Part shown: positions 17,444 through 64,000 of the stretch, one piece after another
Layout: every line of letters starts with the position of its first letter
Numbering within the stretch: the stretch's first letter is position 1
DNA from: Prostheceraeus crozeri
Lineage: Eukaryota > Platyhelminthes > Polycladida > Euryleptidae
NCBI GenBank assembly: GCA_907163375.1
Contig: CAJQUW010012931.1
Coordinates: 62,001 to 126,000 of the forward strand
Direction: 5' to 3'
Length of the DNA stretch: 64,000 nt
Notes under the pieces: generated by a model
Told to the model about the DNA's origin: nothing
What the model saw: only the letters and a program-made list of their open reading frames with translations
The model's database searches: none
Made by a program: the position numbers and the translations under genes

Positions 17444-17770
17444 CTACCAACGGGTTATTTCATACTTTCTGTTGAGATCAGGTCGGTGAATATCAATCAT
17501 TTGGGCTTCAGCGATTCTAGTCTCAACAGGCGTTTTACAATGTGTCAATATCTCTACCTGAAAATCGTTGATTGTCAAAGAATTATTGTGATCATTCTTA
17601 GAATGATCAGACAGGGCACTATTGTCATTATTCATTCTCAGACTATATTCATGTTCGCGATATCTAGCTTGGAATTGTCTGCAAGTTTGACCAATGTATT
17701 TCTTGTTGCAGAACCTACAGACAAAAGAGTAAACAATAAATTTGTCTTCATACATGTAGTCATCTGGCAT
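17444..17770 (-). pseudogene. Inverted copy of PLE-d GIY-YIG endonuclease end
   Basis: 108 codons carrying CRFCNKKYIGQTCRQFQ and the trailing His/Glu block (VETRIAEAQMIDIHRPDLN), identical in translation to the last 108 residues of the frame at 21,939-22,664. It lies in the left inverted arm of PLE-d. It has no upstream reverse transcriptase of its own, so it is a by-product of the inverted terminal repeat rather than a separate gene. Confidence 0.8.
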
Positions 17771-18335
17771 ATGTTCGCAAATAGTACAATTTACATGTTT
17801 ATTTCTCTTATATTTGCAATCGAGACTTTGACAATTGAGATATTTAGCTGGTTTATTGATAATTTATAGTCATTTTTCTTATTCCGTCCGATAAGACTAA
17901 CCGGCTTTGCATCACGGACAAGAATAAATTTTTAGATAAAAATGCTGAAATTCTACAAGATACATCGACTTATCGTGAATTAGCTAAAAGTAAGAATAAA
18001 AACATCGAAAAACAAGCAAATTCTTTAATGAGAAATGTGGGTAAAAAATACCTTTCAAAAACTGAACTGGAAAAACTGATTATGACTGGAAGTAAACCAG
18101 CGTGTTTCCGGACGATGATTAAGGATCATAAAACAAAAGATGAAACGGGTTTTCCTCTAAGTCCGATAGCCGCAGTTAACAATACACCCACTGAAAAGCT
18201 AGATTGGTACAAGCAATATTTTGACGCAATTGGTTCAGTTTGTAAACAGTAACGTGAAAAACCCTGAAGAAGTCATTTTTGACCTAAAAGATAAAAAACT
18301 GAATGTGAGAGATAAGATCAGATAAGTGTCAGAGG

Positions 18336-21439: not shown

Positions 21440-22664
21440 CTATACCTATGGCATACAAGTCGTTACTGAATTTGCTTCGCGTCATTGGGATCAAATACAT
21501 AATTGTAATTTGACTGTGAAAGATTTGGAAAAATGTTTAACGTTCATAACCTATAATTATGAAATAAGCTTCGCTGAGAAAACATACTTGTAAATCCGTG
21601 GCTTCCCTATGGGTAGTCATTTTGCACCTCCTTTTGCCATCATATCCATGGATAAAATCGAAAATGAAGCTTTGAATGTATTGAAAAGTGAATACAATAT
21701 TGTGCCTAAAGTTTACCTGAGATACATCGATGATATCTTAATGGGACTTTTTGAACGTAATGATAGTCTCTTCCAGAGAATTCTGGCTATTTTTAATAAT
21801 GTAAACGATAACATTAAATTTACCATCGATGTACCTGAGGTGGACAAATCTCTAAATGTTTTGGACCTCTCAATATAAGTAGAAAATGAAAATATAAAGT
21901 ATTCGTGGTATACTAAAGAAGCTCATTCGAGTATCACTTTGAACAGAGAAAGTTGGCTTCCGAGACATGTAAAAAGTAACTTCATCATTAATACTGTAAA
22001 ACAGGTGAATGATAAATGTTCTGACATGGATAATAAAAATGAGGCCTTTCAAAAATTGGATAAAAGATTCCAGGAAAATGGTTACAAAAATGTCCACAGC
22101 AATCGCGTTGTGAAATGTAAAGACAAGAAAATAAGTAAATCGACAAAAAAAGATAAAAGTACATACTTGAAATTAGATTATATCAACGATAAATGCACTA
22201 AGAAAATCACTAAAATTGTTAATAAGCACAACTTTCCGATACAAATTATCAATAAACCAGCTAAATATCTCAATTGTCAAAGTCTCGATTGCAAATATAA
22301 GAGAAATAAACATGTAAATTGTACTATTTGCGAACATATGCCAGATGACTACATGTATGAAGACAAATTTATTGTTTACTCTTTTGTCTGTAGGTTCTGC
22401 AACAAGAAATACATTGGTCAAACTTGCAGACAATTCCAAGCTAGATATCGCGAACATGAATATAGTCTGAGAATGAATAATGACAATAGTGCCCTGTCTG
22501 ATCATTCTAAGAATGATCACAATAATTCTTTGACAATCAACGATTTTCAGGTAGAGATATTGACACATTGTAAAACGCCTGTTGAGACTAGAATCGCTGA
22601 AGCCCAAATGATTGATATTCACCGACCTGATCTCAACAGAAAGTATGAAATAACCCGTTGGTAG
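21440..22664 (+). pseudogene. PLE-d reverse transcriptase C-terminal part and GIY-YIG endonuclease
   Basis: After motif A at the LINE-B junction, the frame runs through an RT fingers/palm region, a stop before GFPMGSHFAPPFAIISMD (motif B), VYLRYIDDILMGLFE (motif C with YIDD), a thumb, and after a stop near 21,878 the frame 21,939-22,664. That frame has a Cys-rich linker (LNCQSLDCKYK...CTICEH) and the GIY-YIG nuclease YSFVCRFCNKKYIGQT...REHEYSL. The Cys-rich linker before GIY-YIG is usual for Penelope-like enzymes. At least two stops interrupt it. Confidence 0.85.
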
Positions 22665-51237: not shown

Positions 51238-51269
51238 CTTCAGTAGTAAGCAAGTGACAAATACTGGAT

Positions 51270-52090
51270 AGCGCAAGATGGCCGCCGTCGTGTCTGAGTC
51301 CCCCCCCTCTGGAACGACAGTGTCGTGGTGTGCCGTCCAGGTTGGCCGAGACAAGTCGCTGACGTCCCCCCCCTCTGGAACGACAGAGTGTGAGACTCGG
51401 GTGAATGGGTCCGACCGCCTGGTGGACGTGGGCGACCGTCTAGGTTGACGTGGGCGACCGTCTAGGTTGACATGGGCGACCGCCTAGGTTGTCTTGGATG
51501 GTGAAACGGAGGCCAGATTCGGATTCAGCGTGAAATTCTGCATCTGTATGGTGAATTTGAAAGCAATCGGAGATAAAAATTTTTTCGCTGACGTCCCCCC
51601 CCCTTTGTTCTAACTTTGGTTCTAGTGGACGGATTTTGTTCGTTCGACTTGCATTGGAAAGAGGATGAAACACTGCTCGACCACATGTTTGGTTGCGAGT
51701 CAATCGGAGCAGCCGTTCAAAAGTTAGAGCGGTTACAAGATTTTAGGTCGGAGCTCACCTGAAAAAATCCTAAGTGTCAGAGTGACTTTGTATGGGAAAA
51801 ATTAAAAATTTTCCAAAGTGTGGAATTTCGACCTGGGACTGTCACCAAAACATTTTTCATCAAATTTTGAAATTTCACTGACGCCCCCCCCTCTGGACAG
51901 CTTGCTTCGATTTTGGCTTCCAGTGGATGGATTTTGTCGTGCGATAGCTCGTTTGAAAGCTAAGAGTGAGACAAATTCAGTGAAAGAATTGGCTTGTTCC
52001 TATCTGTCTTCGTTTAGATGTGAGACGCCATTTAAGATTTTGGGACATTGGCGAAAAACGACAGAGTTAGATTTCGAATCAGCTTGATGT
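51270..52090. repeat. Left terminal region with C-tract repeats (probable terminal inverted repeat)
   Basis: A run of seven or more C followed by TCTGG(A/-)AC recurs at about 51,300, 51,366 and 51,886, with a partial form at 51,594, usually preceded by CTGACG. Three 22-bp tandem units with the core GGGCGACCG(T/C)CTAGG start at 51,430, 51,452 and 51,474. There is no convincing gene. Polinton ends are long inverted repeats often with tandem repeats. The matching right end is outside the window, so this is an inference. Confidence 0.45.
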
Positions 52091-52095
52091 TATTG

Positions 52096-52145
52096 TCCAA
52101 TGAGGATCATCATCCAATGAGAATCAAGCATTTCTTTATAAATAG
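52096..52145 (+). promoter_or_regulatory. CCAAT-TATA promoter of the leftmost gene
   Basis: CCAATGAG at 52,097 and again at 52,114 precede a canonical TATAAATAG at 52,137-52,145. A TCATTCC initiator-like site lies ~25 bp downstream (about 52,166). The start codon exon is at 52,251. This is the only canonical TATA/CCAAT arrangement I see in the element. Confidence 0.6.
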
Positions 52146-52250
52146 CGAGCCTTCCACAGTGAGAATCATTCCATCGTTGAATCACACGAGTGACGGACGC
52201 ACATTTTCTCTCTCTCTCTCTCTAGTTCCCTGTTCTATTATCCAACTAAA

Positions 52251-53026
52251 ATGGTAAGTCGCTACTTCCCTCCCTCTCCTCCCTTGAACGTAAACTTAAT
52301 ACAATCTTTTTTCATTTTCAGGCATCTACTCCATCTGCTGCACTAGTAGGACAAAATGGCGGTCAAACGTTACAAGGTTCGCTACGGTCAGATCATCTAC
52401 AACTGAGGCCAGTGGAAGAAACATCCAAGGTACATAATCCTACACCGCTACAGCGTAAATTTAAACAAGCCTTGCGTTATGATGATCATAGCGTAGTACT
52501 CCAAACGGGAATGCTCCCTTCCACGGATGTCAAGATAATGCACAATCAGTATGGGGACTACATACTGATCCCCGTGAGTCCGTACATTCGCCACCAACTT
52601 GATATTATTGAGGAGTACGTGACATTAAATATGGACATTCCTACTCCTCTTGCTCAAGAGTGGAAGGCGAGAGATGACAAGGATACTCCCTATAGAAAGA
52701 TTTGGGATGGTAATCACATTTGCCTACCGGTATCACATTGGTGTACTTACTATAAGAAGGATGGAGATCATTCAAAACCCATCAGATGTGATGAGCTCGG
52801 AGAAGGTACTTGGGATATCCTTTTCAAAGTGAATGGGCTATATTATGGTCGACACAAGGATAATAAAATAGCCTCTCTCTCCATGCATATGGAATCCATC
52901 CTATATATTCCGAAACCACCCAACGTGGACGACATAATTGATCAAATCCTTAACAGCAGTGGTACGAAGCGCAAGTCGGAGAAGAATGCTACATCAAAAC
53001 GCAAATCAAAGAAGGAGAATTGCTAG
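52251..53026 (+). CDS. Unknown Polinton protein with basic tail (spliced, 235 aa)
   Basis: The start codon ATG at 52,251-52,253 is directly followed by GTAAGT; the intron runs to TTTTCAG at 52,321 (68 bp). The frame then continues from 52,322 (ASTPSAALVGQNGG...) to a stop at 53,026 with no other ATG in a suitable position, so the first exon contributes only Met. The C-terminal ~30 residues (GTKRKSEKNATSKRKSKKEN) are rich in Lys/Arg and look like a nuclear localisation or DNA-contact tail. The central part has no motif I recognise. It sits under the TATA promoter and may be an early gene. Confidence 0.75.
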
Positions 53027-53060
53027 TCCTTTCCTAACTCTACCCTATGACAATTCGCTT

Positions 53061-53186
53061 ATGTGCTTTGAGTGTCGTAGACGTGGTCTTATTAGATACA
53101 TTTTACTTCTTCGTTGCCATCATATCATTTGTGTATTTTGTCGTGAAAAGCATCGATGTAATTCTTCATTTTGTAATATGTTATAG
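53061..53186 (+). CDS. Small Cys/His zinc-finger protein (41 aa)
   Basis: From ATG 53,061 the frame reads MCFECRRRGLIRYILLLRCH then HIICVFCREKHRC. The CxxC, CHxxxC, CxxC-type spacing is that of a small RING/treble-clef finger, but a complete cross-brace is not evident in 41 residues. It may instead be the end of a spliced protein, since the frame is open upstream. It starts 34 bp after the preceding gene and has no ATGCAAA motif. Related in pattern to the larger protein at 54,270. Confidence 0.5.
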   Translation: MCFECRRRGLIRYILLLRCHHIICVFCREKHRCNSSFCNML

Positions 53187-53220
53187 AACGTTTCCTTAGA
53201 TGTGTAAATTTCCGTTTTAG

Positions 53221-53769
53221 GCTTCTATCATCATTTTTATGGATTGTGAGGGTGAACCTGTACAGGAGCTGAGTGCTATTGCTATGAACAATTGGACATA
53301 TCAGATTGTTAGTGTCTATCATCAACATGCCAACTGCGATCCCAATGTTGATCAATGGGCGAGAAAACACATTCATGGACTTAATCTGAAATATTTGCAA
53401 GACTATGGCTTTTCTTGTGAAAGTGCTCTTCTTATTGACTTTAAACGATGGTTAGCTGCTTTCAATGTTATACGCATCTTTTGTAATAATCCTGGTAAGG
53501 AGAGGAAAGTATTTCCCAATCTAATCATTGATGATATTTTGCTCCCACCTTGGGATACTAGAGTGAATCAACATTATCATGAAGTCACGAAACGTTTTAA
53601 GGATTTGTGTGTTCCTATTTTGTCTGTTCGTTGTAGTAGCTACGTTCATAACCAATGCTTCTTTCCTCCTTACCTCAACACTGCCAAAGTCCTGTATGGT
53701 TATCATTGCTCGCTGTATGATAGTTACCAGCTGTATCTATTTTATCTCTTTCAAACCATTGATTTATAA
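53221..53769 (+). CDS. DEDDh-type 3'-5' exonuclease, probably spliced to the ATG exon at 52,251
   Basis: The frame opens at an acceptor (CCGTTTTAG|G, 53,220/53,221) with ASIIIFMDCEGEPVQELSAI, the first strand and Exo I motif (DxE) of DnaQ/TREX-like nucleases. A middle block, FKRWLAAFNVIRIFCNNPGK, fits Exo II. The end, YGYHCSLYDSYQLYLFYL, gives the HxxxxD of Exo III. Starting at the internal ATG (53,239) would cut off the first beta strand. Splicing from the ATG|GTAAGT donor at 52,253 gives M-ASIIIF and 183 residues. Probable roles are proofreading or end trimming in element replication. AATAAA at 53,792 follows. Confidence 0.7.
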   Translation, partial: ASIIIFMDCEGEPVQELSAIAMNNWTYQIVSVYHQHANCDPNVDQWARKHIHGLNLKYLQDYGFSCESALLIDFKRWLAAFNVIRIFCNNPGKERKVFPNLIIDDILLPPWDTRVNQHYHEVTKRFKDLCVPILSVRCSSYVHNQCFFPPYLNTAKVLYGYHCSLYDSYQLYLFYLFQTIDL

Positions 53770-53791
53770 TGCATGCTTGTTACCGTTATTC

Positions 53792-53797
53792 AATAAA
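53792..53797 (+). terminator. Polyadenylation signal AATAAA after the exonuclease gene
   Basis: AATAAA 22 bp after the exonuclease stop and before the next promoter motif. Confidence 0.5.
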
Positions 53798-53825
53798 TGT
53801 TACTATGAGAAGAGTTGTTGTTTTC

Positions 53826-53834
53826 ATGCAATGG
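53826..53834 (+). promoter_or_regulatory. ATGCAATGG, weak form of the element's start-proximal motif
   Basis: 31 bp upstream of the ATG at 53,857; differs from ATGCAAA at the seventh position. Listed because position and spacing match the other copies. Confidence 0.35.
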
Positions 53835-53856
53835 ATGGGTTAGATAAAGGGCGATC

Positions 53857-54267
53857 ATGTCTTTCTCAAACGACTGCGGAACATTACGTTTTCATAGGCA
53901 AAGTTTAAAAGGAGCTGTTCAAGATTATGTGATAAATTTTCATAAAGATGAGACCGACATCGAAGCAGTGGTTGATGATGCTAGCACTCTATTTCTAGAG
54001 TTAATGAATACATTCTCTGATAGCATTATCATGGCGCGATTAGTTGCGAAAATTAAGTTTAGTCATTTTGGAAAGCAAGAGGTGGAAAGTCGCTCTTTCC
54101 ATTTTGCTTCTTATTCAATGGAAGTGGTAGATCACCCCCAAGAATTTTTTAAAAGACATATGATAAAAATTGCCGAACGTCTTAACGCATTTAACCATCA
54201 TGGTAGCAGTCTAGTGATTGAAGCGATTTCAGATATTCACATTCAACTTTCCATAAACAAAAATTAA
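53857..54267 (+). CDS. Protein resembling the N-terminal module upstream of Polinton polymerase B (136 aa)
   Basis: ATG-initiated (MSFSND...). Acidic middle (DETDIEAVVDDASTLFLELM) and a C-terminal block, FKRHMIKIAERLNAFNHHGS then SLVIEAISDIHIQLS. This resembles the I..F...GSGW.(V/L)..I..L.(I)HI segment that precedes the nuclease/polymerase of Polinton-type DNA polymerases. Here it ends shortly after, as a free-standing protein. The polymerase itself is not in the window. The similarity is from memory of the family pattern and is modest. The next gene starts 2 bp after its stop. Confidence 0.4.
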   Translation: MSFSNDCGTLRFHRQSLKGAVQDYVINFHKDETDIEAVVDDASTLFLELMNTFSDSIIMARLVAKIKFSHFGKQEVESRSFHFASYSMEVVDHPQEFFKRHMIKIAERLNAFNHHGSSLVIEAISDIHIQLSINKN

Positions 54268-54269
54268 AA

Positions 54270-54593
54270 ATGCAGTGGTACTTGATTGTAGCACAACTGG
54301 TTTTCGAGCTATGTCTGCTCACTCTCGAAGTATATTCCTTCTGTACATGCGTCTATTATTTAGAAAAGGCTAGCAAATTCATATCTTCAAAAAGACTTGC
54401 TATAGACATCAGTAACGGTGAAACTATGTGTTGCGATGTATGTAAGCGAAAGGATGGAAATGAAAAGCGCATCTTCAAGAGATGTAAGCATGCTTTTTGT
54501 CAACGCTGTTTCATACGTAATTGCATTCAACTTTGCCAATGTAACCACTGTGATATTGCTCATTTCGAGTGTCACTTATGTCGCAATAGTTAG
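54270..54593 (+). CDS. Membrane-anchored RING-like zinc-finger protein (107 aa)
   Basis: Starts 2 bp after the preceding stop. A hydrophobic N-terminal segment (about residues 3-30, including LIVAQLVFELCLLTLEVY) predicts a membrane anchor. From residue ~54 come CCDVCKRKDGNEKRIFKRCK, HAFCQRCFIRNCIQL, CQCNHCDIAHFECHLC, i.e. CxxC...CxHxxCxxC...CxxC...CxxC, a RING-type cross-brace. RING proteins usually act as ubiquitin ligases, so modification of host proteins at membranes is possible (inference). No ATGCAAA motif, consistent with translation from the upstream gene's transcript. Confidence 0.7.
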   Translation: MQWYLIVAQLVFELCLLTLEVYSFCTCVYYLEKASKFISSKRLAIDISNGETMCCDVCKRKDGNEKRIFKRCKHAFCQRCFIRNCIQLCQCNHCDIAHFECHLCRNS

Positions 54594-54598
54594 TACCT

Positions 54599-54610
54599 AT
54601 GCAAATGTGG
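54599..54610 (+). promoter_or_regulatory. ATGCAAATGTGG start-proximal motif
   Basis: 46 bp upstream of ATG 54,645, in the 51-bp gap after the RING gene; preceded by T (TATGCAAA). Confidence 0.55.
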
Positions 54611-54644
54611 TAAAGATAGGTTTTAGCAAAGACTAACACGAAAA

Positions 54645-55001
54645 ATGGCGAAACGTAAAATGACGAAACGTAAAAGTCAAAAGTTTTCTTCAGCCATTCA
54701 AGCTCTCCGACGAATGAAAGCAAATCAGCGATACAATGCTATACGACATGCCAACGATAAATTCATTCATGAAATTATTTCTCATGTGAGAAAGTTGAGG
54801 ACGAAGAAATTAGCACCAAAACAACGAAAGTTACTTAAGCGATATGCTACGAAATTGCGTTTCATCTCCAATCCTAAAGTCACCCTTCAAAGAAAGAGGA
54901 AAACTCTAACACAAAAGGGCGGTTTCCTTTCAGCAATACTTCCGATGTTAGCTCCTGTCGTGGGTAACCTATTGGGAAATATCTTTGGCTCTAAGCGTTA
55001 A
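54645..55001 (+). CDS. Basic Polinton protein with GG-hydrophobic C-terminus (118 aa)
   Basis: Strongly basic: MAKRKMTKRKSQKF, RKLRTKKLAPKQRKLLKRYA, VTLQRKRKTL. It then ends in QKGGFLSAILPMLAPVVG NLLGNIFGSKR (read as one stretch), a glycine pair followed by an amphipathic or hydrophobic helix. This two-part design (basic body, QxGG(F) hydrophobic tail) is a recurrent small protein in Polinton/adintovirus clusters, next to the ATPase. It resembles adenovirus membrane-lytic or core proteins in layout only. Likely virion core or membrane-active protein (inference). AATAAA follows at 55,027. Confidence 0.65.
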   Translation: MAKRKMTKRKSQKFSSAIQALRRMKANQRYNAIRHANDKFIHEIISHVRKLRTKKLAPKQRKLLKRYATKLRFISNPKVTLQRKRKTLTQKGGFLSAILPMLAPVVGNLLGNIFGSKR

Positions 55002-55003
55002 TT

Positions 55004-55015
55004 ATGCAAATGTTG
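55004..55015 (+). promoter_or_regulatory. ATGCAAATGTTG start-proximal motif
   Basis: 29 bp upstream of ATG 55,033 of the ATPase; preceded by T. It lies in the 31-bp gap between genes. Confidence 0.6.
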
Positions 55016-55026
55016 AGTCTCAAAGT

Positions 55027-55032
55027 AATAAA
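55027..55032 (+). terminator. Polyadenylation signal AATAAA after the basic protein gene
   Basis: AATAAA immediately before the ATPase start codon, 25 bp after the stop of the basic protein. It could end the 53.8-55.0 kb transcript. Confidence 0.4.
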
Positions 55033-55650
55033 ATGGATTTCAGACTTCAATGTGATAAAGTTCTGACTGTATCAGGTCCATCTCATGCAGGTAAAACTGT
55101 TTTCACGCTGAATTTATTGGATAAAAGAAGGGAGTTGTTTAGGGAAGCTATCAATCGAGTGATTTGGTGTTATGGTATTTATCAACCGTCGCTGTTTCAG
55201 GAATTGCAAAGTCGCAACTTTATTCGACATGAAGGAATTATTGCAGTGGATAAACTTCAGTCTAATGATGTTGTTGTATTGGATGATTTATTAAAAGAAA
55301 GTAAGAATTCAAAAGATGTTACAGATATGTTCACTCGCGCAGCACACCATAAAAGGTGCTTTATCATCTATATCACACAAAATTTGTTTCCTGATGGAAA
55401 AGAAGCTCGTACACGAAACCTGAATACACACTATTATGCTATTTTCAAGAATCCGCGAGATAAAAGTCAATTTGAAATTTTAGCGCGACAAGTTGCACCC
55501 AGAGGATCAAAAGCCTTAATTGAAATTTTTCAAGCAGCTACTGAAAAACCATACGGTTACTTATTCATTGACTTTACGCAAGAGTGTCCGGAAGAATTTA
55601 GATTTCGAAGTGATATTTTGAAAACTCCCATGATTATCTACAAACTATGA
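55033..55650 (+). CDS. DNA-packaging ATPase, FtsK-HerA superfamily (205 aa)
   Basis: Start chosen at ATG 55,033 because the longer frame has no upstream ATG and an AATAAA/ATGCAAA pair precedes it. Walker A SGPSHAGKT (residues ~14-22), Walker B VVVLDD (~80-85), sensor TQN (~115-117), ARTRNLN (Arg region ~125-131), FKNPRDKSQ (~138-146) and a C-terminal ATEKPYGYLFIDF block. Together these are the signature of the Polinton/adintovirus genome-packaging ATPase, which drives DNA into the capsid. Normal length and all catalytic motifs present. The stop overlaps the next start (ATGA). Confidence 0.92.
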   Translation: MDFRLQCDKVLTVSGPSHAGKTVFTLNLLDKRRELFREAINRVIWCYGIYQPSLFQELQSRNFIRHEGIIAVDKLQSNDVVVLDDLLKESKNSKDVTDMFTRAAHHKRCFIIYITQNLFPDGKEARTRNLNTHYYAIFKNPRDKSQFEILARQVAPRGSKALIEIFQAATEKPYGYLFIDFTQECPEEFRFRSDILKTPMIIYKL

Positions 55651-56339
55651 GTTCTTATTCTCGCATGATTGTTATTCCTCAGGATGAATATGTACAATTG
55701 ACTGCCATGCAGCAAGTAAAGCAACCTCTTGCAAATCAAATGTATAGGAAAGAAATAGATTATCAGCAAAATGTTCACATCAAAGATCCACATCGTGCTG
55801 TATTATTACAATCGGAAACTGTTGAGCAATTAAAAAACTTGAAGAATAAGATGCGTGACTCTGTATCGACTGCAACACCTTTAGCATCTCGCGCACATGC
55901 CATATCTCTTTTCAACAGTATTGAACCCCATCTCAATGTAAATGATAGAGGAGAAATCATTACAGATGAAAATAAAGTGATTGATGCTTCACGTTATGAA
56001 GACTTGATTCAGTATGCGACACGTAGAAAGCGCCGTCAGGGCTATGTTCCACCTGGTTGGTCATACTTTCTTAAACTATTGAAAAAGCATAATGTACCAA
56101 AATTTGCTTTGAATAATGAGACATTGAAAGAACTTGATTCAACAGTGGCTACTGCTCCAATGCTTCAGACGATGAAAATGCCAACAAATTGGTTTAAGGC
56201 GTCACCTGCTACATCCCCTCCCACACTCACTAAGCAAACAAGAGGAAGAACTCGACGTAGATCTACATCGCCACTAAAACTAGTAAAAGGAAAACGTAAA
56301 ACAGCTCCTCCCAGGAAATACATGTTCTCAGACTATTAA
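55647..56339 (+). CDS. PX-like conserved Polinton protein (230 aa)
   Basis: Starts inside the ATPase stop (ATGA at 55,647). Begins MSSYSRMIVIPQDEYVQLTA, continues with a predicted helical region, then DASRYEDLIQYATRRKRRQ, the (R)YxxLI.Y.. block I associate with the conserved Polinton protein usually called PX. The C-terminus is basic (TRGRTRRRSTSPLKLVKGKR), like a DNA-contact tail. Probably a virion structural or assembly protein; exact role unknown. One base separates it from the Cys-rich gene. Confidence 0.6.
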   Translation: MSSYSRMIVIPQDEYVQLTAMQQVKQPLANQMYRKEIDYQQNVHIKDPHRAVLLQSETVEQLKNLKNKMRDSVSTATPLASRAHAISLFNSIEPHLNVNDRGEIITDENKVIDASRYEDLIQYATRRKRRQGYVPPGWSYFLKLLKKHNVPKFALNNETLKELDSTVATAPMLQTMKMPTNWFKASPATSPPTLTKQTRGRTRRRSTSPLKLVKGKRKTAPPRKYMFSDY

Positions 56340-56340
56340 T

Positions 56341-56556
56341 ATGAAGCAGATGTGTTGCTTGCCATGTAATGAGCCGCCAGAGGTGAATGTCGTTGTCACT
56401 TGCACTTGCTGCGCCAGCTCTCACAATGAAACCCCTAAGCAATGTGAACACGATCGCAAAACCGCTAAAGCTAAATGCTGCAGTTGTTGTAAATGTAGAA
56501 AGGCAAGAAAGCAAAAAGATGAGAAGGAGGAAAAAGAGTCAGTCGTCATCGACTGA
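56341..56556 (+). CDS. Cysteine-rich small protein (71 aa)
   Basis: Begins one base after the PX-like stop: MKQMCCLPCNEPPEVNVVVT CTCCAS..., then CEHDRKTAKAKCCSCCKCRK (read in sequence) and a Lys/Glu tail. About 13 of 71 residues are Cys, in CC, CxC and CxxC pairs, without a recognisable finger. Metal binding or disulfide clustering is likely. The frame overlaps the integrase start by 38 nt. I believe similar proteins occur in other Polintons but cannot name a family. Confidence 0.65.
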   Translation: MKQMCCLPCNEPPEVNVVVTCTCCASSHNETPKQCEHDRKTAKAKCCSCCKCRKARKQKDEKEEKESVVID

Positions 56557-57607
56557 ACGTTTGAAGTCAATCTATTATGATGTAAAACATCCGGCAGGAT
56601 TTGCATCGATCAAGAAATTATCAAAAGCGAGTGGTCTTCCACAATCACAAGTGAAACGATGGTTAAAGGGTCAGGCTACCTATACACTCCACAAACAAGC
56701 GAAAAAGAAGTACCGCACCCGCCATTATATTGTTCATGACATCGATGAACAGTGGCAAGCAGATTTGTGCGATGTTGCCTCCATTTCAAAACATAACTCG
56801 GGCAATAATTTTATTTTAACCGTCATTGATATTTTCTCGCGTTATGCGTGGGCTCAACCTTTAAAAACTAAAGAAGGGAAAGGAGTAGCAAAAGCATTCC
56901 AAACAATTTTTCGAGAAGGTCGGATTCCAAAAAGAATTCAGAGTGATCAAGGAAAAGAGTTTGAAAATCAGCATGTGAGAAGATTATTTGAGAGGCATGA
57001 CATTGAGTTGTTTAGTGTAAAGAGTGCTTATAAAGCTGCACTCGTTGAACGTTTTAATCGCACATTAAAAAATCGCTTGTGGCGACATTTTACTGCCAAC
57101 TTAACACAAAATTGGACAAAGGTTCTACAAGATACACTCCATGCCTACAATCACTCTATCCATCGTTCTATTGGACTCAGACCAGTAGATGTAAATGCTG
57201 ACAATGTAGATAAAGTGCGCGAATCATTCCAACGTAAACGCACTCATTTGAAAAGTGATGTGAAAATTGGTGATAAAGTTCGTATCTCAAAAGTGAAAAG
57301 TGTTTTTGCTAAAGGGTACCTTCCGAATTGGACAGAGGAGGTATTTACAGTATCAAGGATTAATCAAAAAGACTCTCCGACCACCTACAAGTTGAAAGAT
57401 TATGATAATGAAGAAATTGAGGGTAGCTTTTACCGCGATGAGATTGAGGTAGTCACTGAAAGTGAAACATATTTGGTAGAGAAAATCATTCGATGTAAAA
57501 AACGGCAAGGTGAAGAATGGTGTCTTGTTAAATGGAGTGGTTACCCTTCAAGTATGAACTCTTGGATGCGTCGTGCCGACATCTTTCATCTAAGTGATCG
57601 ACAGTGA
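56519..57607 (+). CDS. Retroviral-type integrase with C-terminal chromodomain (about 362 aa)
   Basis: Start set at ATG 56,519; the frame is open to 56,387, so a 406-residue form is possible. An N-terminal HTH-like region (FASIKKLSKASGLPQSQVKR) replaces the HHCC finger, as in Polinton c-integrases. The catalytic core shows QWQADLCDV (first Asp), RIQSDQGKEF (second Asp) and ALVERFNRTL (Glu; 33 residues between Asp and Glu by my count). An SH3-like region follows (KIGDKVRISKVKSVFAKGYL), then a chromodomain YLVEKIIRCKKRQGEEWCLV KWSGYP...SW. It would insert the element; the chromodomain may guide it to modified histones. Codes overlap with the Cys-rich gene. Confidence 0.95.
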   Translation: MRRRKKSQSSSTERLKSIYYDVKHPAGFASIKKLSKASGLPQSQVKRWLKGQATYTLHKQAKKKYRTRHYIVHDIDEQWQADLCDVASISKHNSGNNFILTVIDIFSRYAWAQPLKTKEGKGVAKAFQTIFREGRIPKRIQSDQGKEFENQHVRRLFERHDIELFSVKSAYKAALVERFNRTLKNRLWRHFTANLTQNWTKVLQDTLHAYNHSIHRSIGLRPVDVNADNVDKVRESFQRKRTHLKSDVKIGDKVRISKVKSVFAKGYLPNWTEEVFTVSRINQKDSPTTYKLKDYDNEEIEGSFYRDEIEVVTESETYLVEKIIRCKKRQGEEWCLVKWSGYPSSMNSWMRRADIFHLSDRQ

Positions 57608-57610
57608 TTC

Positions 57611-57621
57611 ATGCAAAGTTG
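57611..57621 (+). promoter_or_regulatory. ATGCAAAGTTG start-proximal motif
   Basis: 38 bp upstream of ATG 57,649; the same 11-mer occurs at 61,125. Lies in the 41-bp gap after the integrase. Confidence 0.6.
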
Positions 57622-57648
57622 TAACTAACAATGTTTAGGGTTTGAGCT

Positions 57649-58104
57649 ATGAATCCAACTGCCTCATTTTATTCACGACCCTCCTATGTAAGTGGTGGAG
57701 GACAAATTTACATCGGCGCTCGCCGCCAACGTGGAGGTAGCATACTTGGTGCACTGAAATCTGTTGTAGCACCTCTCATATCCAATGTCGGTAGATCTTT
57801 AAAACGAAATGTTTTAAGTAATGCCGTTGGCTTTGCTGGTGATGTTGCTAGTGATCTTTCCAGAGGTAGAAGTTTTAAGAGCAGTTTGTTGAATCGTGGG
57901 AAGGAACGCGGTTTAAAAACATTGAAGCAGACCTTTGCTGGTGTTACTCAAGGAAAGAAATCACCTAAACGAATGAAAAAAGGAAGGAGGAAACATCGCG
58001 GAGCTGGTAAGGCGCGATCTTCAGTCAAAAGGCATTCACGCAAACGTCGCAGAGGCTCTAATCATTCATCAGGCGCTAAACGACGACGCTGCTATAACTT
58101 CTAA
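57649..58104 (+). CDS. Core/minor capsid protein with basic tail, adenovirus pVI/pX-like layout (151 aa)
   Basis: N-terminus SFYSRP...VSGGGQIYIGARRQRGGS followed by ILGALKSVVAPLISNVGRSL, a glycine-rich segment then an amphipathic helix. The last ~40 residues are extremely basic (GKKSPKRMKKGRRKHR, RHSRKRRRGSNH). The GGG-(V/I)Y.G.R.QRG.G pattern recurs in Polinton/adintovirus proteins compared with adenovirus pVI or core proteins. The glycine pairs could be sites for the adenain-type protease encoded two genes downstream (inference). Two bases separate it from the capsid gene. Confidence 0.65.
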   Translation: MNPTASFYSRPSYVSGGGQIYIGARRQRGGSILGALKSVVAPLISNVGRSLKRNVLSNAVGFAGDVASDLSRGRSFKSSLLNRGKERGLKTLKQTFAGVTQGKKSPKRMKKGRRKHRGAGKARSSVKRHSRKRRRGSNHSSGAKRRRCYNF

Positions 58105-58106
58105 TC

Positions 58107-59384
58107 ATGGAGTGTAAAACTTCCGGTTTTTGTTTGTTCGATCAACAAGCCATACAGACAGATATTCTTAGTTCAAGTATTGTAGATTATCATCCTCGAA
58201 CAGCTGAGAATGCTGGCCCCATTGAATTTGTTATTCCTGGTGGTAGTGATGACTACATAGATTTGAGTTATGCGATGCTTGATTTGAGGTTTAGAATTCA
58301 GCAAGCAGATGGAACTGCTATTGACGATGCACATAAAGTTGGACTGAACAATTTACCATTGACTACATTACTTCGTGATGTTTCTCTAACGATTGGAGAG
58401 CAGCAGGTGGAAGGTGGTCAAAGCGATTATCCCTATAAATCATATTTCAATCATGTATCACAGTTTCATCCAGCAGCACAAAAAAGTCATATGGAAGCCA
58501 TGGGATGGTACAGAGATGAAGCAGGAAAATTTGATGTTGAAACAAACAGTGGCTTTGTAAAGCGATCTGCTATGATTAAAGATAGTAGAGTATGTCAGCT
58601 ATATGGTCCGCTGAATTTAGACTTCTTTAGACAGTCAAAGTTTTTACTGTGTAATACCAGCATGCGACTCAAGCTGACATTGAATAAGCCTGAATTTGCG
58701 CTGAATGCATTTGCTAAAGTTGACAATTTTAGAATTCATGTGGAAGATATTGCACTTTACATTCGTCGAGTAGTACCGAATCCAAGTGTCATTAGAGGGC
58801 ATGCTGAAGGCCTTAACCGCCAAAATGCCATTTACCCCGTTCAGCATACAAAGCTTCTCACCTTTACAATTCCGAAAGATCAAAAGAGTTTCATGAAAGA
58901 TGGCCTCTTTCCATCGGAAGCACCGAAGCTCCTCATGGTGGCAATGGTTGAAAATGATGCATTTAATGGTAATATAAAGAAGAATCCTTTCAATTTTAAA
59001 CACAATCAGTTAAGTGAAATTGCTTTACGTGTAAATGGTGTGAGTCATCCTGGTCCACCCTACAAACCAGATTTTGCTTCGGATCAATTTATGCGCAGTT
59101 ATGTTGATTTTATGGATGTCTTTGGCTTTTACAATACGGATGACACCAACGGACTGACTATGAAAGAGTTTAAGAGTGGATATACTATTTATGCATTTGA
59201 TTTGACTGCTGACAGCGATATTAGTGCACCCTATCGTCAAGCGAACGTGCCTCATAATATTCGTTTGGATTTGACGTTCAAAAGAACACTACCTGAGACG
59301 ATCAATGTATTAATTTATGCAGTCTTCGATTCAAATATTGAAATTACAAAGTATCGTGACGTGATTCTTCAGTATAATCGTTAA
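58107..59384 (+). CDS. Capsid protein, hexon-like (F54H12.2-like family, 425 aa)
   Basis: Characteristic blocks in order: SSIVDYHPRTAENAGPIEFV, DDYIDLSYAMLDLRFRI, LTTLLRDVSLTIGEQQVE, DYPYKSYFNHV, GPLNLDFFRQSKFLL, DIALYIRRVVPNPSVI, HTKLLTFTIPKDQKSF, ENDAFNGNIKKNPFNFKH, SGYTIYAFDLTADSD and LPETINVLIYAVFDSNIEIT. This is the widespread invertebrate family annotated as F54H12.2-like, which belongs to Polintons and which I take to be the double-jelly-roll capsid protein. I cannot prove from sequence alone that it is the hexon rather than the penton. Full length. The stop overlaps the protease start (TAATG). Confidence 0.8.
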   Translation: MECKTSGFCLFDQQAIQTDILSSSIVDYHPRTAENAGPIEFVIPGGSDDYIDLSYAMLDLRFRIQQADGTAIDDAHKVGLNNLPLTTLLRDVSLTIGEQQVEGGQSDYPYKSYFNHVSQFHPAAQKSHMEAMGWYRDEAGKFDVETNSGFVKRSAMIKDSRVCQLYGPLNLDFFRQSKFLLCNTSMRLKLTLNKPEFALNAFAKVDNFRIHVEDIALYIRRVVPNPSVIRGHAEGLNRQNAIYPVQHTKLLTFTIPKDQKSFMKDGLFPSEAPKLLMVAMVENDAFNGNIKKNPFNFKHNQLSEIALRVNGVSHPGPPYKPDFASDQFMRSYVDFMDVFGFYNTDDTNGLTMKEFKSGYTIYAFDLTADSDISAPYRQANVPHNIRLDLTFKRTLPETINVLIYAVFDSNIEITKYRDVILQYNR

Positions 59385-59845
59385 TGAGTTGGTTGACTGC
59401 TGACGATATTAAGACTAAAGTGCAGCGTAATGCAGACGAAGCGACGTTGAAAGCTTTCGATAATGTCTATTCACTCGATACCTTACCACCTGCAGTAAAT
59501 CACTATCCCATCTTTATTGTGCTAAACACTCATTCACAGAATTTAGGCGGTGAGCATTGGAAAGCGATCTTTATTGGAGAAGACCGACGTGGTGAACTAT
59601 TTGACTCTCTTGCTCAACCTCCAAATATACCAACACAGCAGTGGTTGAGAAAACATACGCGTCAATATCAGCGAAATGAACGCATACTACAACATCCACT
59701 TTCATCAACGTGTGGTGCTTTTGTACTGTACTTCATCTTAAGACGTTTACATGTATCTCGATTTGCATCTGTTATTCAAAACTTTTCATGTAATCCATCC
59801 TCTAATGAAAAAATGATTTGTAAGTTCTATCATGATTTGAAATAA
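59384..59845 (+). CDS. Adenain-type cysteine protease (153 aa)
   Basis: ATG overlaps the capsid stop by one base. Catalytic His58 in GGEHWKAIFI, Asp74 (or Glu71) in GELFDSLAQ, Gln103 and Cys110 in LQHPLSSTCGAFVLYF. The 7-residue Gln-Cys spacing and HW...D...C order are those of adenovirus-type (ULP1-fold) proteases, which mature virion precursors. The length is shorter than adenain but usual for Polintons. It lies directly after its likely substrates. An AATAAA overlaps its stop. Confidence 0.92.
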   Translation: MSWLTADDIKTKVQRNADEATLKAFDNVYSLDTLPPAVNHYPIFIVLNTHSQNLGGEHWKAIFIGEDRRGELFDSLAQPPNIPTQQWLRKHTRQYQRNERILQHPLSSTCGAFVLYFILRRLHVSRFASVIQNFSCNPSSNEKMICKFYHDLK

Positions 59846-59846
59846 A
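59841..59846 (+). terminator. Polyadenylation signal for the rightward structural block
   Basis: AATAAA overlapping the protease stop codon; no other AATAAA lies between genes from 55,033 to here, so upstream transcripts may be 3'-coterminal. Confidence 0.55.
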
Positions 59847-59870
59847 AACATCATGTTGGAAAAATTGTTT

Positions 59871-59876
59871 TTTATT
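59871..59876 (-). terminator. Polyadenylation signal for the leftward block
   Basis: AATAAA on the minus strand overlapping the TBP-like stop codon, 25 bp from the opposite-strand signal; a compact convergent pair. Confidence 0.55.
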
Positions 59877-60417
59877 TTACAATCCGCTGGGTACGTACAT
59901 ACTCAATGAGATAGTCTAGGATCATATTTGCTTGTACATGAGATTTTAGTCCAGTAATGATCACTTTACTATTATGAAAGATTGCCACATGCACAGGTAA
60001 CCAACAACTAATGAGAGCTGCAGGAAAAAGTTCGGGTTCATAACACAAACTGTAACTGCTGGTACGAATCTTCAAAAATGATAGACTGTCACTCAATTGA
60101 GTAGAGATCACCATATTGTCCACAGTCAGATTCGACATCACACACCTCTCCCTCTTCCATATCCGACGTAGTAGTCTTTGTAGCTCTAAGCGCATTGACT
60201 GCGCCGATGAATGAGAAAGGGCGCCGAGAATCTGTACAGTCCCATTTGGGAAGAGTTGAAGATTCCGTGAATTGTTCATCTTCACCACTAACATTTGAGG
60301 ACGACCCGGGTAATACTTGCTGTTTGGAAGCTGTTGGTGTAATGTTGTGAGATCGATTTTGGTATAGAGTCTGAAGCGACGGAGAATGTTGACGATGGTG
60401 TAGCGATGGCGCTTCAT
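59872..60417 (-). CDS. TATA-binding protein (TBP) homologue, two-repeat saddle (181 aa)
   Basis: From ATG 60,417 both TBP repeats are present. Repeat 1: YTIVNILRRFRLYTKIDLTT, NSKYYPGRPQMLVVKM, LQLFPNGTVQILGALS, then a helix. Repeat 2: VDNMVISTQLSDSLSFLKIR, CYEPELFPAALIS, VAIFHNSKVIITGLKSHVQA and a final helix. The YEPELFP box and the (I/L)F..(G/S)K(V)..TG blocks are TBP hallmarks. Of the four DNA-kinking Phe positions, three look conserved; the one in the first YxPxR(F) box is Pro. Overall highly diverged from cellular TBP. Likely directs transcription from the element's own promoters (inference). It overlaps the preceding minus-strand frame. Confidence 0.87.
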   Translation of the reverse strand: MKRHRYTIVNILRRFRLYTKIDLTTLHQQLPNSKYYPGRPQMLVVKMNNSRNLQLFPNGTVQILGALSHSSAQSMRLELQRLLRRIWKRERCVMSNLTVDNMVISTQLSDSLSFLKIRTSSYSLCYEPELFPAALISCWLPVHVAIFHNSKVIITGLKSHVQANMILDYLIEYVRTQRIVK

Positions 60418-60739
60418 GATGAAAGAATGAGTAAATTGAGCGATGTACCTTCCTTTTATACTTTTCCCAACTACCTTGATGAAATGTGAAGTTAGTATGA
60501 AGTTGGGAATGATAGAGTTGAATTCGCCGATTGTTGACGCGCAACCAGATGCGATTTCCAATACGTGAATGTCTTTTCATATAGAAGTATTTTAAATCCT
60601 TCATGATATGATGTAGAGATTGAAAATGACGATAAGATAAAGCAAACTCTCTTCTCACATTTCCAGTTGAATCTTTGAAATAGACGTTTCGATCATGATC
60701 CGTTTCAATACGTTGTAGGGAATCTAATTTCCAACTCAT
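60089..60739 (-). CDS. PC4-like protein 2, paralogue of 60,762-61,118, with acidic tail overlapping TBP
   Basis: The first ~110 residues (WKLDSLQRIETDHDRNVYFK, EFALSYRHFQSLHHIMKDL, NRIWLRVNNRRIQLYHSQ, GSWEKYKRKVHRSI) align along their length with the upstream protein. The beta-rich first part and the LT/LS.R.F..L helix recall the PC4/p15 coactivator fold (weak). The remaining ~105 residues are Ser/His then acidic (SDMEEGEVCDVESD) and share DNA with the TBP gene in another frame on the same strand. Either a true overlap, or the real protein is shorter or spliced. ATGCAAAT precedes the start by 35 bp. Confidence 0.6.
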   Translation of the reverse strand: MSWKLDSLQRIETDHDRNVYFKDSTGNVRREFALSYRHFQSLHHIMKDLKYFYMKRHSRIGNRIWLRVNNRRIQLYHSQLHTNFTFHQGSWEKYKRKVHRSIYSFFHHEAPSLHHRQHSPSLQTLYQNRSHNITPTASKQQVLPGSSSNVSGEDEQFTESSTLPKWDCTDSRRPFSFIGAVNALRATKTTTSDMEEGEVCDVESDCGQYGDLYSIE

Positions 60740-60761
60740 GGTGTGTGATAGTCATGTCTGA

Positions 60762-61118
60762 TTAAGATTTGCATAGTAGGGCGATGAACTCACGACGAAT
60801 AAATGTCATGATGGAGCGATGTATGTATCTTCTATACTTCTCCCAATTGTATTTGCGAAATGAGAAACAGTTTGCGGAATGAGAATGGTAGATTTGAATT
60901 TCATTTCTGTAATGTTGAAGCCAAACTTGATCACCCAGGGAGATGAATCTTAATGTTTCAAAATATTCCAAATCCCTCATGATATCATTGAGGTTGACAA
61001 ATTGTCGCCATGTTAATGTAATTCCTCTTGATGTATGACCATGAGAATTTTTGAAATGTACGTTTCCATCACGATCAACTCTGATATATTGTAGAGAGTC
61101 CAAAATCCAAGTCTTCAT
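60762..61118 (-). CDS. PC4-like protein 1 (118 aa)
   Basis: Start at ATG 61,118 (MKTWILDS...). Reads LDSLQYIRVDRDGNVHFKNS, RGITLTWRQFVNLNDIMRDL, then LGDQVWLQHYRNEIQIYHSH, CFSFRKYNWEKYRRYIHRSI. The second half looks like a diverged repeat of the first (V...R..(N/E)(V/I)....S, then F/L-T/R-aromatic-helix), so each protein may hold two copies of one small fold. The (K)xxGI(T/S)LTxxQ(W/F)xxL pattern resembles the ssDNA-binding coactivator PC4. The family call is tentative. It diverges from the WEVG gene across a 35-bp gap containing an ATGCAAA motif. Confidence 0.55.
   Translation of the reverse strand: MKTWILDSLQYIRVDRDGNVHFKNSHGHTSRGITLTWRQFVNLNDIMRDLEYFETLRFISLGDQVWLQHYRNEIQIYHSHSANCFSFRKYNWEKYRRYIHRSIMTFIRREFIALLCKS
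60767..60774 (-). promoter_or_regulatory. ATGCAAAT start-proximal motif (minus strand)
   Basis: TATGCAAATCTTA read on the minus strand, 35 bp upstream of ATG 60,739; heads the PC4-like 2/TBP unit. Confidence 0.55.
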
Positions 61119-61124
61119 GATGTT

Positions 61125-61135
61125 ATGCAAAGTTG
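61125..61135 (+). promoter_or_regulatory. ATGCAAAGTTG start-proximal motif in a divergent 35-bp gap
   Basis: 29 bp upstream of ATG 61,154 (plus) and 7 bp upstream of ATG 61,118 (minus). Orientation favours the plus gene; preceded by T. Confidence 0.6.
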
Positions 61136-61153
61136 CAGATTAGCAATATAAAA

Positions 61154-62551
61154 ATGTCGTTTTATCATATTTTGCTTAGCAATGCGGCTACAAAGAGATT
61201 TACTAGTAATCGAGCCGCACTCTTTTCTACTCCCATTGATCATGCACAACAGCTAAATGGGAATTGGGAAGTGGGTGTCACTCAACTTGTTTATAGCAAC
61301 TGTGTCTATACTTTTGATCATGAGGTGATGACTATTAATATGAGACGTACAGCTGCTTACCAATGTGAAAAGGGCTGCCGAGTATACATTCCACAGTGGC
61401 CAAAGAAAGATCTCTTATTATGTAAAAAGTTTATATATGATTTCTTGAATAAAGCGTGTAAACATATTGCCCAATTTACTCCACACAATGATGATTATAC
61501 TTATATACATCATGTAGTTGAGAAAGATTGGATTGTTGGTTTAAGTCCAAGTTTAAGAAATGATTTAGGTTACCTCGCTAGCGCCTTGACAAGCTATGAT
61601 AATTTTAACGTTAATTACCACATAAGTGCTCATAAACAGTTAATATATCGAGAGGAAGCTTATTATGTAGATCTTATTCCAAAAAATGAGAAGACGTTGG
61701 TGAAGAAGATTGTGATTAAGCCAAGAAAGACAAACATGACTCCTGAAACATTATTGAAGAAATTTAATTATCTCCTTCGAGTTGATGGTAAACAAGTGGC
61801 AACATTGACTTATATTAAATCATCTAATCATATTGCAATAAGTAAATTAAATGATGATGATCTAGTATTAGTTTGTTCAAAAGATTTTCATCAGTTCTTG
61901 CGACATCATTCTGCAGCTGTTCATGGAAAATTTAATATGCAACATTTACCATGTGAAAGGTCAAATCAATTTGATACAGAATGGACCGTATCTTTATACA
62001 GAAAGTGTGTAGAGCCTTTCGGTGGTATCTTACATGAAACAAGAGTGTTGATGCCTCGCATCATTACTTCAGTTAAATTGGTTGTAGATTATTTAAATGA
62101 AGTGATTAATGACCAACATATTTCATTTTCTGAAAAAGAAGGTACTTTGTCTCTCACTATAAGTGGAAAAGGTATTGAACTAATTATGGATAAAACTCTA
62201 ATGGACATTTTGGGTTTTGACCAAAATATCTTTAAAAGTGGTACTGTAACCAAAGCTAGCGCAGACATGTCGCTATCGCGTCGTATTAACTATTTTCAGA
62301 TATATTCCAATATTGGTGAAGATGTACGTGTGGGAGATGTTGAAGCTCCATTGCTAGCAATGATACCATACCAGCCAAAGAGCTGCAGTATTTTATCTGA
62401 GCATACTTTCAAGAAAGTGCATTATACAAAGCTGAAATCAAACTACATCCCACAAATTGATATTGCCATTTATGACGATGCTGGTGCGTTGATTCCTTTT
62501 CATAAAGATGCTGTGACAAGTATCACACTCCATTTCCGAATGAAGAGTTAA
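61154..62551 (+). CDS. WEVG-family Polinton structural protein 1 (465 aa)
   Basis: Start at ATG 61,154 (MSFYHILLSNAATKRFTSNR); an upstream TTG-only extension is ignored. The opening FY..LLSN...F..N....F...I..(A)QQLNGNWEVGVTQLVYSN is the signature of a large protein common in Polintons (FYVxLPSNxSxxxFPxNxxxxFxxxL..PIxLxGxWEVGLxEIxYP). The rest is beta-rich, with FDTEWTVSLYRKC mid-way. I take it as a second virion-surface protein, possibly the penton/minor capsid class; the exact role is unproven. The next gene is a paralogue. Confidence 0.6.
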   Translation: MSFYHILLSNAATKRFTSNRAALFSTPIDHAQQLNGNWEVGVTQLVYSNCVYTFDHEVMTINMRRTAAYQCEKGCRVYIPQWPKKDLLLCKKFIYDFLNKACKHIAQFTPHNDDYTYIHHVVEKDWIVGLSPSLRNDLGYLASALTSYDNFNVNYHISAHKQLIYREEAYYVDLIPKNEKTLVKKIVIKPRKTNMTPETLLKKFNYLLRVDGKQVATLTYIKSSNHIAISKLNDDDLVLVCSKDFHQFLRHHSAAVHGKFNMQHLPCERSNQFDTEWTVSLYRKCVEPFGGILHETRVLMPRIITSVKLVVDYLNEVINDQHISFSEKEGTLSLTISGKGIELIMDKTLMDILGFDQNIFKSGTVTKASADMSLSRRINYFQIYSNIGEDVRVGDVEAPLLAMIPYQPKSCSILSEHTFKKVHYTKLKSNYIPQIDIAIYDDAGALIPFHKDAVTSITLHFRMKS

Positions 62552-62560
62552 TGCAAACGT
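62551..62560 (+). promoter_or_regulatory. ATGCAAACGT start-proximal motif
   Basis: 40 bp upstream of ATG 62,591; it begins within one base of the preceding stop codon. Favouring 62,591 over the in-frame ATG at 62,561, which is only 10 bp from the motif start. Confidence 0.5.
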
Positions 62561-62590
62561 ATGCTAATATATTTTTCCAATGTGAATAAT

Positions 62591-64000
62591 ATGGAAAGTG
62601 AAAATAAGGACTCGTTTCTAATCTACTTGCCCAGTAATGCTTCTATGAATAAATTTCCCAAAAATAAACCATCAGACTATCGAGTAGAATTAAATCGGCC
62701 ACTGCATTTAGAAGGTGAATGGGAGGTTGGCGTTTCTAGTATTTGCTATGATAGCAATATTCAGAATGTGAATGATTTGGAAGAAATGATATTGACTCCT
62801 CGCACCCATGATGGAATAACGATGAATAATGCATTTCAGTTCCCATACAATTTAACATCAGATGGAAAGTGGAACTATGAATGGATTCAGATAAAATCAG
62901 ATTCTTATGTGCCATTTGGGAATGAGAAAATTATTAAGGCATTCAACAGTGGTAATACTTCCATCATGAAGAATAAAAATCAGAAAGCTTATGAGTTTAC
63001 TATCTATCATTGGAGTGGGAGACAGTTCCTCCGCTTTCATTCTTTTACTAAAGGTCTTACGCTGAGGTTGGATAGTGAATTCTATCCCCATCTCGGTTTT
63101 GGTCATGGACTACATCTAACGTCAATTGCTACTGCAAATGTTAGAAAAGTTTATTCAAATCGAATCAACAAATTTCATTATAGATTTAAAATATTTGATG
63201 AAGATGTTGTAGAATGCGAAGAACGCATCATTTTGAAAAAGCGTGGTGTTCAACCTTTATCACTTATTGAGTTAGTAAAACGATGGAATGAGACTGTGGG
63301 TAAGAAGTATGGAGAGAAAATTATGGCGGACAAAAATAAGTTGGTCATTCAGAAATATAATGACAAACTTACAGTTTATTTCTCTCCAACCTTGCGTCAT
63401 TTTGTAAGACATTATACACCTATTATTGGAAGCGGTGTGGTGTATGCTTCTCATGAATATCACACTAAAGCTGATTCAGTTAATGATGAATGGTGGGTGG
63501 ACATCTATGGCGATCGCATCAAGAAAATTTACCAGTCTTATGAAGAATCTAAAGTTGCTATCAATATAATGCCGCGTCTATATCATACAGTTGAAAGCTT
63601 CATTCATGTAGTAAATCCTTATATACAACAGAAGTTGAAGCATGTGATGAAAAGTAAATATGATGTAAAGACACACCACATTTCGTTTTCAATTGAAAAT
63701 CAACGCGTTGTTCTGAAACTGGGTGATGACATTCAATGTCAATTGAGTAAAAATTTGAAAAAACTCTTTGGTTTTTCAATGCTACAAACTGTGTTTGCTG
63801 CTGCGCATACGATTGGTATAGAAACACCAATGACACTTGATAAACATGAACAGCACCTTTACATTCAAAGTGATTTGATTCTACCTATTTCTGTTGGTGA
63901 GAAAAAAGAATACATTTTACGCGATTTCATTCATGATAAAGACGCTTCATATGGAATAGTCGAGAAGATGTTTGAATCTATTTTCTATCATCCCGTCGTC
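62591..64000 (+). CDS. WEVG-family structural protein 2, cut by the window end
   Basis: Open from ATG 62,591 (MESENKDSFLIYLPSNASMN; an in-frame ATG also at 62,561) to the last base with no stop. KDSFLIYLPSNASMNKFPKN then LNRPLHLEGEWEVGVSSICY fits the family signature better than protein 1. Later blocks FTIYHWSGRQFLRFHSF, LDSEFYPHLGFG, VYFSPTLRHFVRHYTPII, DEWWVDIYGDRIKKIY and KLGDDIQCQLSKNLKKLFGF fit a beta-rich, repeated-domain virion protein. At least 470 residues. A diverged tandem paralogue of the gene before it, suggesting two related capsomer or spike components. Confidence 0.65.
   Translation, partial: MESENKDSFLIYLPSNASMNKFPKNKPSDYRVELNRPLHLEGEWEVGVSSICYDSNIQNVNDLEEMILTPRTHDGITMNNAFQFPYNLTSDGKWNYEWIQIKSDSYVPFGNEKIIKAFNSGNTSIMKNKNQKAYEFTIYHWSGRQFLRFHSFTKGLTLRLDSEFYPHLGFGHGLHLTSIATANVRKVYSNRINKFHYRFKIFDEDVVECEERIILKKRGVQPLSLIELVKRWNETVGKKYGEKIMADKNKLVIQKYNDKLTVYFSPTLRHFVRHYTPIIGSGVVYASHEYHTKADSVNDEWWVDIYGDRIKKIYQSYEESKVAINIMPRLYHTVESFIHVVNPYIQQKLKHVMKSKYDVKTHHISFSIENQRVVLKLGDDIQCQLSKNLKKLFGFSMLQTVFAAAHTIGIETPMTLDKHEQHLYIQSDLILPISVGEKKEYILRDFIHDKDASYGIVEKMFESIFYHPVV

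Follow-up and report, generated by a model that had tools for sequence, protein, structure and literature searches.

Which signal marks the starts of transcription units in a virus-like element of the polyclad flatworm Prostheceraeus crozeri, and which protein reads it? The question was raised by the 64,000-nucleotide stretch analyzed here (contig CAJQUW010012931.1, positions 62,001 to 126,000), called the window below. It contains a Polinton/Maverick-type virus-like transposon that starts at position 51242 and continues past the window end. An earlier note on this DNA had described a repeated ATGCAAA motif ahead of the element's genes and proposed the element's own TATA-binding protein (TBP) as its reader, with a host octamer factor as the main alternative. 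Genes are named here by the position of their start codon.

Placement of the ATGCAAA box

A gene was counted as the head of a unit when it was divergent from the previous gene or separated from it by a gap of at least 20 bp. Within 60 bp upstream, ATGCAAA was present at six of ten unit heads and at none of the five packed genes. The six exact copies, which precede genes 54645, 55033, 57649, 60739 (minus strand), 61154 and 62591, had exactly the positions and distances that the earlier note had given (Table 1), and all of them were on the coding strand of the gene downstream. The weaker form reported before 53857 was also found there. The absence of the motif from packed genes held for the five that were tested (seven had been claimed), while the bases following the motif, described as often nGTTG, were only loosely common to the copies. 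The exact motif was missing at four heads, namely 53239, 53857 (weak form only), the integrase gene 56387 and 61118 (minus strand), and two of the eight ATGCAAA copies were located away from gene starts (56606 and 59768, both on the minus strand).

Over the whole window ATGCAAA occurred 22 times against 26.5 expected, thus there was no overall enrichment and the non-random feature of the motif is its placement, not its abundance. A support of six was reached by no 7-mer in 5000 draws of random 60-mers (maximum five) or in 3000 dinucleotide shuffles (maximum four). When the eight sites were placed randomly in 52001–64000, at most three heads were matched, and six heads were matched in 0 of 200,000 trials. 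Circular shifts of the eight sites matched at most two heads in 11,801. In five of the six boxed heads, further ATGs besides the one in the box itself were present between the box and the start codon. This favors transcription starts downstream of those ATGs, and starts near the start codon would place the box at the distance of a TATA box.

The near-identical copies of the element were also compared. Both boxes of the compared stretch were kept in 30 of 30 copies, and the four right-hand boxes (28 bases) had no changes in the aligned parts of 15 copies, of which L043, L049, L050 and L052 aligned only partly. This conservation proves little, because fewer than two changes were expected (352 variable positions in ∼5500 aligned). 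As diverged copies, L012/L031 were rejected (∼98% identical with a 4-kb insertion) and L050 was not used, as its differences look like read errors.

A different kind of upstream sequence was observed at the two ends of the element. Each end showed a pair of CCAAT boxes together with a TATA-type box, and a leader built as ATGGTAAG...CAG; the TATA-type box of the right end is ATATAAGC, at about L033:4766 on the minus strand. The single ATGCAAA of L033 was inside the zinc-finger open reading frame (ORF), more than 60 bp from the starts of both right-arm ORFs. Among the boxed heads, TATAAA within 80 bp was present only at 61154, at 7 bp. The division between end genes with CCAAT and TATA boxes and genes with ATGCAAA suggests an early/late split, in which the timing would follow the type of promoter. 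The sequence TATAAAAG before the TBP gene is at the same time part of the coding sequence of the overlapping 60739 frame, and its conservation may stem from that.

The corresponding box in sister families

Two further families of the element were found in the same genome, and one copy of each was read for gene content. The P0041 search gave 150 scored copies of family 3 that were 68–71% identical to P0041, 14 of which had one stop. The copy read, C2078, keeps the gene order of the window from 54645 to 61154 and has an ATPase that is 65% identical, one extra ORF, and no match for 60739 or TBP. ATGCAAA was present at none of its seven heads. A one-letter variant, AAGCAAA, was found at five of the seven (in four of them as TAAGCAAA) and at none of three packed genes, a support that no 7-mer reached in 5000 draws. 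It was located 33 bp before the counterpart of 54645, 30 bp before that of the integrase gene, 43 bp before that of 57649 and 32 bp before that of 61154; at the 61118-like head it was 16 bp from the first ATG or 34 bp from the second. Head 6728 had no AAGCAAA. Fisher's test for the switch between the families (6:0 versus 0:5) gave p = 0.002, and p ∼0.015 (by hand) once an AAGCAAA that the window's element has 59 bp upstream of 61118 was counted. A one-letter difference at corresponding heads of two families in one genome points to a 5' signal that is specific to the element.

The promoter-like reading of the box is well supported: by its placement and strand, by the lack of it at the packed genes that were tested, and by AAGCAAA at matching positions in family 3.

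Some relatives of the ATPase have protein sequences that would be compatible with a box. P0008 and P0024 begin exactly 30 nt upstream of the ATPase methionine, with MQT and MQI, respectively, which fits ATGCA(A/G)A. The more distant P0086 has LSK where CTAAGCAAA or TTAAGCAAA would fit, 31 bp upstream, and by our own reading of the ATPase relatives P0032, P0085 and P0113 fit neither form.

Family 2 was represented by 150 scored TBP copies from the P0130 search, two of them with a stop. The copy read, C3873, matched the polymerase-like, zinc-finger, 61118/60739, TBP, 53239 and 53857 proteins, with a TBP that was 42% identical. At E 0.001, none of its three pieces matched the ATPase, the integrase, the protease, 58107 or 61154.

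The copies read carried complementary gene sets, with polymerase-like, zinc-finger and TBP genes in family 2 (L055–L057) and the virion module and integrase in family 3 (L058, L066, L067). Virion-module matches were absent from the family-2 copy, and polymerase and TBP matches from the family-3 copy. Families 2 and 3 could form a two-part system, or they could be deletion families. Sequence related to the terminal inverted repeat (TIR) was common to all three families, which makes a supply of TBP in trans possible.

The element-encoded TBP and other candidate readers

The ORF at 60417–59872 (minus strand) is a genuine TBP with a two-repeat saddle. Its structural model (mean pLDDT 83.3) was matched by Foldseek to cellular TBPs, mostly with a target-normalized TM score of 0.70–0.81. 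We aligned 26 TBPs (the window's, the family-2 protein and 24 relatives) and assigned yeast residue numbers via alignments. In the C-terminal half, N159, V161, F190, P191, F207 and T215 were kept in 26 of 26, while V213 showed mild variation (I 20, L 3, V 2, M 1). The N-terminal half kept N69 in all 23 proteins that have a residue there and F116 in 26 of 26, and other positions were replaced: F99 by P in all 25 that have a residue there, V122 by Q in 26 of 26, T124 by L in 18 and M in 8, and V71 by M, H or L in 24 of 24 with a residue. Hence three of the four intercalating phenylalanines were present, F99 being replaced by proline. The two glutamates that contact TFIIB were unchanged in all 26. 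In TBP, the N-terminal half contacts the 3' side and the center of the box. It is there that TATGCAAA differs from TATAAAA, and the match between this difference and the altered N-terminal half is suggestive. The DNA-contact and TFIIB-contact roles of these residues are known for TBP, and are partly also described in PMC12529657 and PMC7221094.

The explanation that we favor, while giving it somewhat less than an even chance, is that the box is a late core promoter element read by the element-encoded TBP, possibly in trans, with host RNA polymerase II (Pol II). TA(T/A)GCAAA would act as core promoter element for transcription units of the element that are probably late, and would take the position of a TATA box if transcription begins at the start codon or shortly upstream of it. 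TBP is a plausible reader and the best candidate, because the element brings a TBP with a changed DNA face and because the ATG positions favor the TATA distance. Its C-terminal half would read the 5' side of the box as cellular TBP does, the altered N-terminal half would tolerate the central G-C pairs, and host TFIIB and Pol II would be recruited. The end genes, and perhaps the TBP gene too, would use the host-type CCAAT/TATA promoters and be expressed first, and a family lacking TBP would be supplied in trans.

Several observations weigh against this explanation. The spacing between box and ATG is loose (29–46 bp), and the AAGCAAA before 61118, although the only one near a head there, occurs in the window's element. 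The site before 60739 is not encoded by three of four relatives of 61118 (P0149 could encode it). In family 3, the ATPase gene is headed only by AAGTTAAA, at 34 bp; L062 lacks the TAAGCAAA before 54645 that is present in the other seven of the eight copies read there. The family-2 copy has a TBP, yet the GCAAA box was found at none of the six starts examined (one has AAGCAAT), and the family-3 copy gave no TBP in 16.5 kb (three pieces, E 0.05, eight TBP queries, left end not reached). The earlier proposal that the box is the target of a diverged TBP was thus upheld with respect to the protein and its altered N-terminal DNA-contact face, while TBP and box were uncoupled in one copy each of families 2 and 3.

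The same uncoupling speaks for a host reader. The box could be a core promoter read by host TFIID or another host factor while the element TBP does otherwise, for example by serving its own early units; we regard this as rather unlikely, as a single host factor does not require a one-letter difference at corresponding heads in the same genome and the DNA face of the element TBP is changed. A reader of the 61118 type is less probable again, but like the host reader it is a serious rival. Relatives of this small protein were detected in all three families and the top Foldseek hit of its model was a PUR repeat protein, a nucleic-acid binder; the hit had an E-value of 0.055 with nothing at 0.001, the PDB sequence search gave no match below E 0.19, the family-3 match was weak (27%), and family 2 has the protein, yet no box at six starts. 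The identity of 61118 as PC4/PUR was not upheld beyond a weak fold match.

The box could instead be a non-promoter signal at unit starts, such as an RNA, packaging or 3'-end signal. We consider it improbable, since the box has the orientation of the gene that it precedes, also where it falls in a divergent gap (61125) or within the end of the frame before it (60768–60774), and contains an ATG, which is awkward in a leader; the 3'-end variant was rejected on these two locations. A host octamer (Oct/POU) site is very improbable: ATGCAAAT is complete in three of the six copies, but the other three are not full octamers, it is not kept at the corresponding promoters of family 3, where AAGCAAA is no octamer, and strand and distance fit a core promoter.

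Relation to known systems and organization of the element

TBPs encoded by viruses and altered TATA boxes in viral promoters have been described before (PMC7221094 and PMC12529657). According to the latter, the late promoters of beta- and gammaherpesviruses (TATTWAA) are read with host Pol II by a viral TBP mimic, e.g., ORF24 of Kaposi's sarcoma-associated herpesvirus. The resemblance lies in a viral TBP-type protein and an altered TATA-like box before late genes, with no polymerase of their own. ORF24 is reported to be a mimic without the TFIIB glutamates that retains the Phe residues and depends on viral partners, whereas the element TBP is a true homologue that keeps these glutamates, has lost one Phe and is predicted to bind DNA. 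Large double-stranded DNA viruses also encode TBP homologues, and according to PMC7221094 most of these have diverged TFIIB-contact sites and viral TFIIB partners; here, in contrast, the TFIIB contacts are conserved and Pfam found no TFIIB domain in the proteins scanned. With Polinton/Maverick elements and adintoviruses, the element shares the rve-chromodomain integrase, long TIRs, a 6-bp target duplication (one copy) and, by weak matches, a putative ATPase and protease, and differs from them in its TBP and family-specific box. TBP and TATA had 0 occurrences in PMC11071296 and PMC11071308, and no Polinton that combines a TBP with a family-specific box was found in the open-licence literature, surveyed mostly at listing level.

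Within the literature searched, little is known of how Polinton virion genes are expressed. The family-specific box at the majority of unit heads, its sister version with one letter changed and the altered TBP together pose a directly testable question, and the system may be a natural case of changed TBP specificity. In the broadest form, which we regard as doubtful, Polintons would run an orthogonal initiation system in the host nucleus: a TBP re-specified in its N-terminal half (F99P, V122Q, T124L/M) would read TAWGCAAA at virion-module units and work through the TFIIB and Pol II of the host. It would act once early promoters of the host CCAAT/TATA type have been used, and would serve in trans the sister families among which the polymerase/TBP and virion modules are divided.

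Table 1. Features of the element in the window.
Feature	Position	Strand	Remarks
Left TIR, begins AGTAGTAAGC	51242..52044	.	Boundary common to other copies; 93.9% inverted match at C12455 right end
TATAAATA, host-type TATA box of left-end gene (putatively early)	52137..52144	+	Two CCAAT boxes precede; from sequence
ATG then GTAAGT...TTTTCAG, intron-like leader	52251..52321	+	73% alike to right-end leader; putative splicing
Weak form ATGCAATGG	53826..53834	+	31 bp before 53857
ATGCAAA box	54599..54605	+	46 bp before 54645
ATGCAAA box	55004..55010	+	29 bp before ATPase gene 55033; kept in 30/30 near-identical copies
Packaging-type ATPase	55033..55650	+	Weak AAA_14 and Pox_A32 matches below cut-off; 459 relatives
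rve integrase with chromodomain	56387..57607	+	Pfam rve 43.3 bits, Chromo 29.5 bits, above cut-off; no ATGCAAA at head
ATGCAAA box	57611..57617	+	38 bp before 57649
Ulp1/adenain-like protease	59384..59845	+	Pfam just below cut-off; packed, no box
TBP gene, 181 aa from first ATG	59872..60417	-	Pfam TBP 70.3 bits; model pLDDT 83.3; Foldseek
Frame, N-terminal part 44% identical to 61118	60089..60739	-	
TATAAAAG	60453..60460	-	43 bp before TBP start; same spacing in family-2 copy
118-aa protein, weak PUR-like fold match	60762..61118	-	Rival reader of box
ATGCAAA box	60768..60774	-	35 bp before 60739; within end of preceding frame
ATGCAAA box	61125..61131	+	29 bp before 61154; divergent gap
ATGCAAA box	62551..62557	+	40 bp before 62591

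The right end of the window's own copy was not found. Copy C12455 was ∼24.1 kb long with TIRs of ∼800 bp and a GATGTG 6-bp target duplication, which was not seen in C347, the other of the two copies examined, at the ends taken. The left TIR contains a 22-bp tandem repeat of 3.7 copies at 51412–51491. In the 2.05-Gb genome (window contig G000:C10731), all 150 scored ATPase copies were at least 99% identical and without stops; since only the best candidates were scored, 150 is a lower bound, and the amplification of the element was apparently large and recent. No DNA relatives of the element were found in IMG/VR, the GTDB species genomes or phage records.

The family-3 relative of the protease passed the Pfam cut-off, that of the ATPase did not, and 58107, 61154 and 62591 had no Pfam match, to a jelly-roll capsid protein or any other. 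On the minus strand, 60089–61118 forms a tandem pair of related 61118-type proteins. The right arm has a minus-strand ORF of 1023 aa (L033:618-3689), for which Pfam and PHROGs matched only endonuclease VII and a PDB search gave no PolB match; its motifs resemble those of PolB, and it is a candidate for the protein-primed PolB of Polintons. Outside the element, ORFs 17486–17869 (plus strand) and 22173–22622 (minus strand) translate identically over 127 residues, a sign of an inverted duplication that spans ∼400 bp or more.

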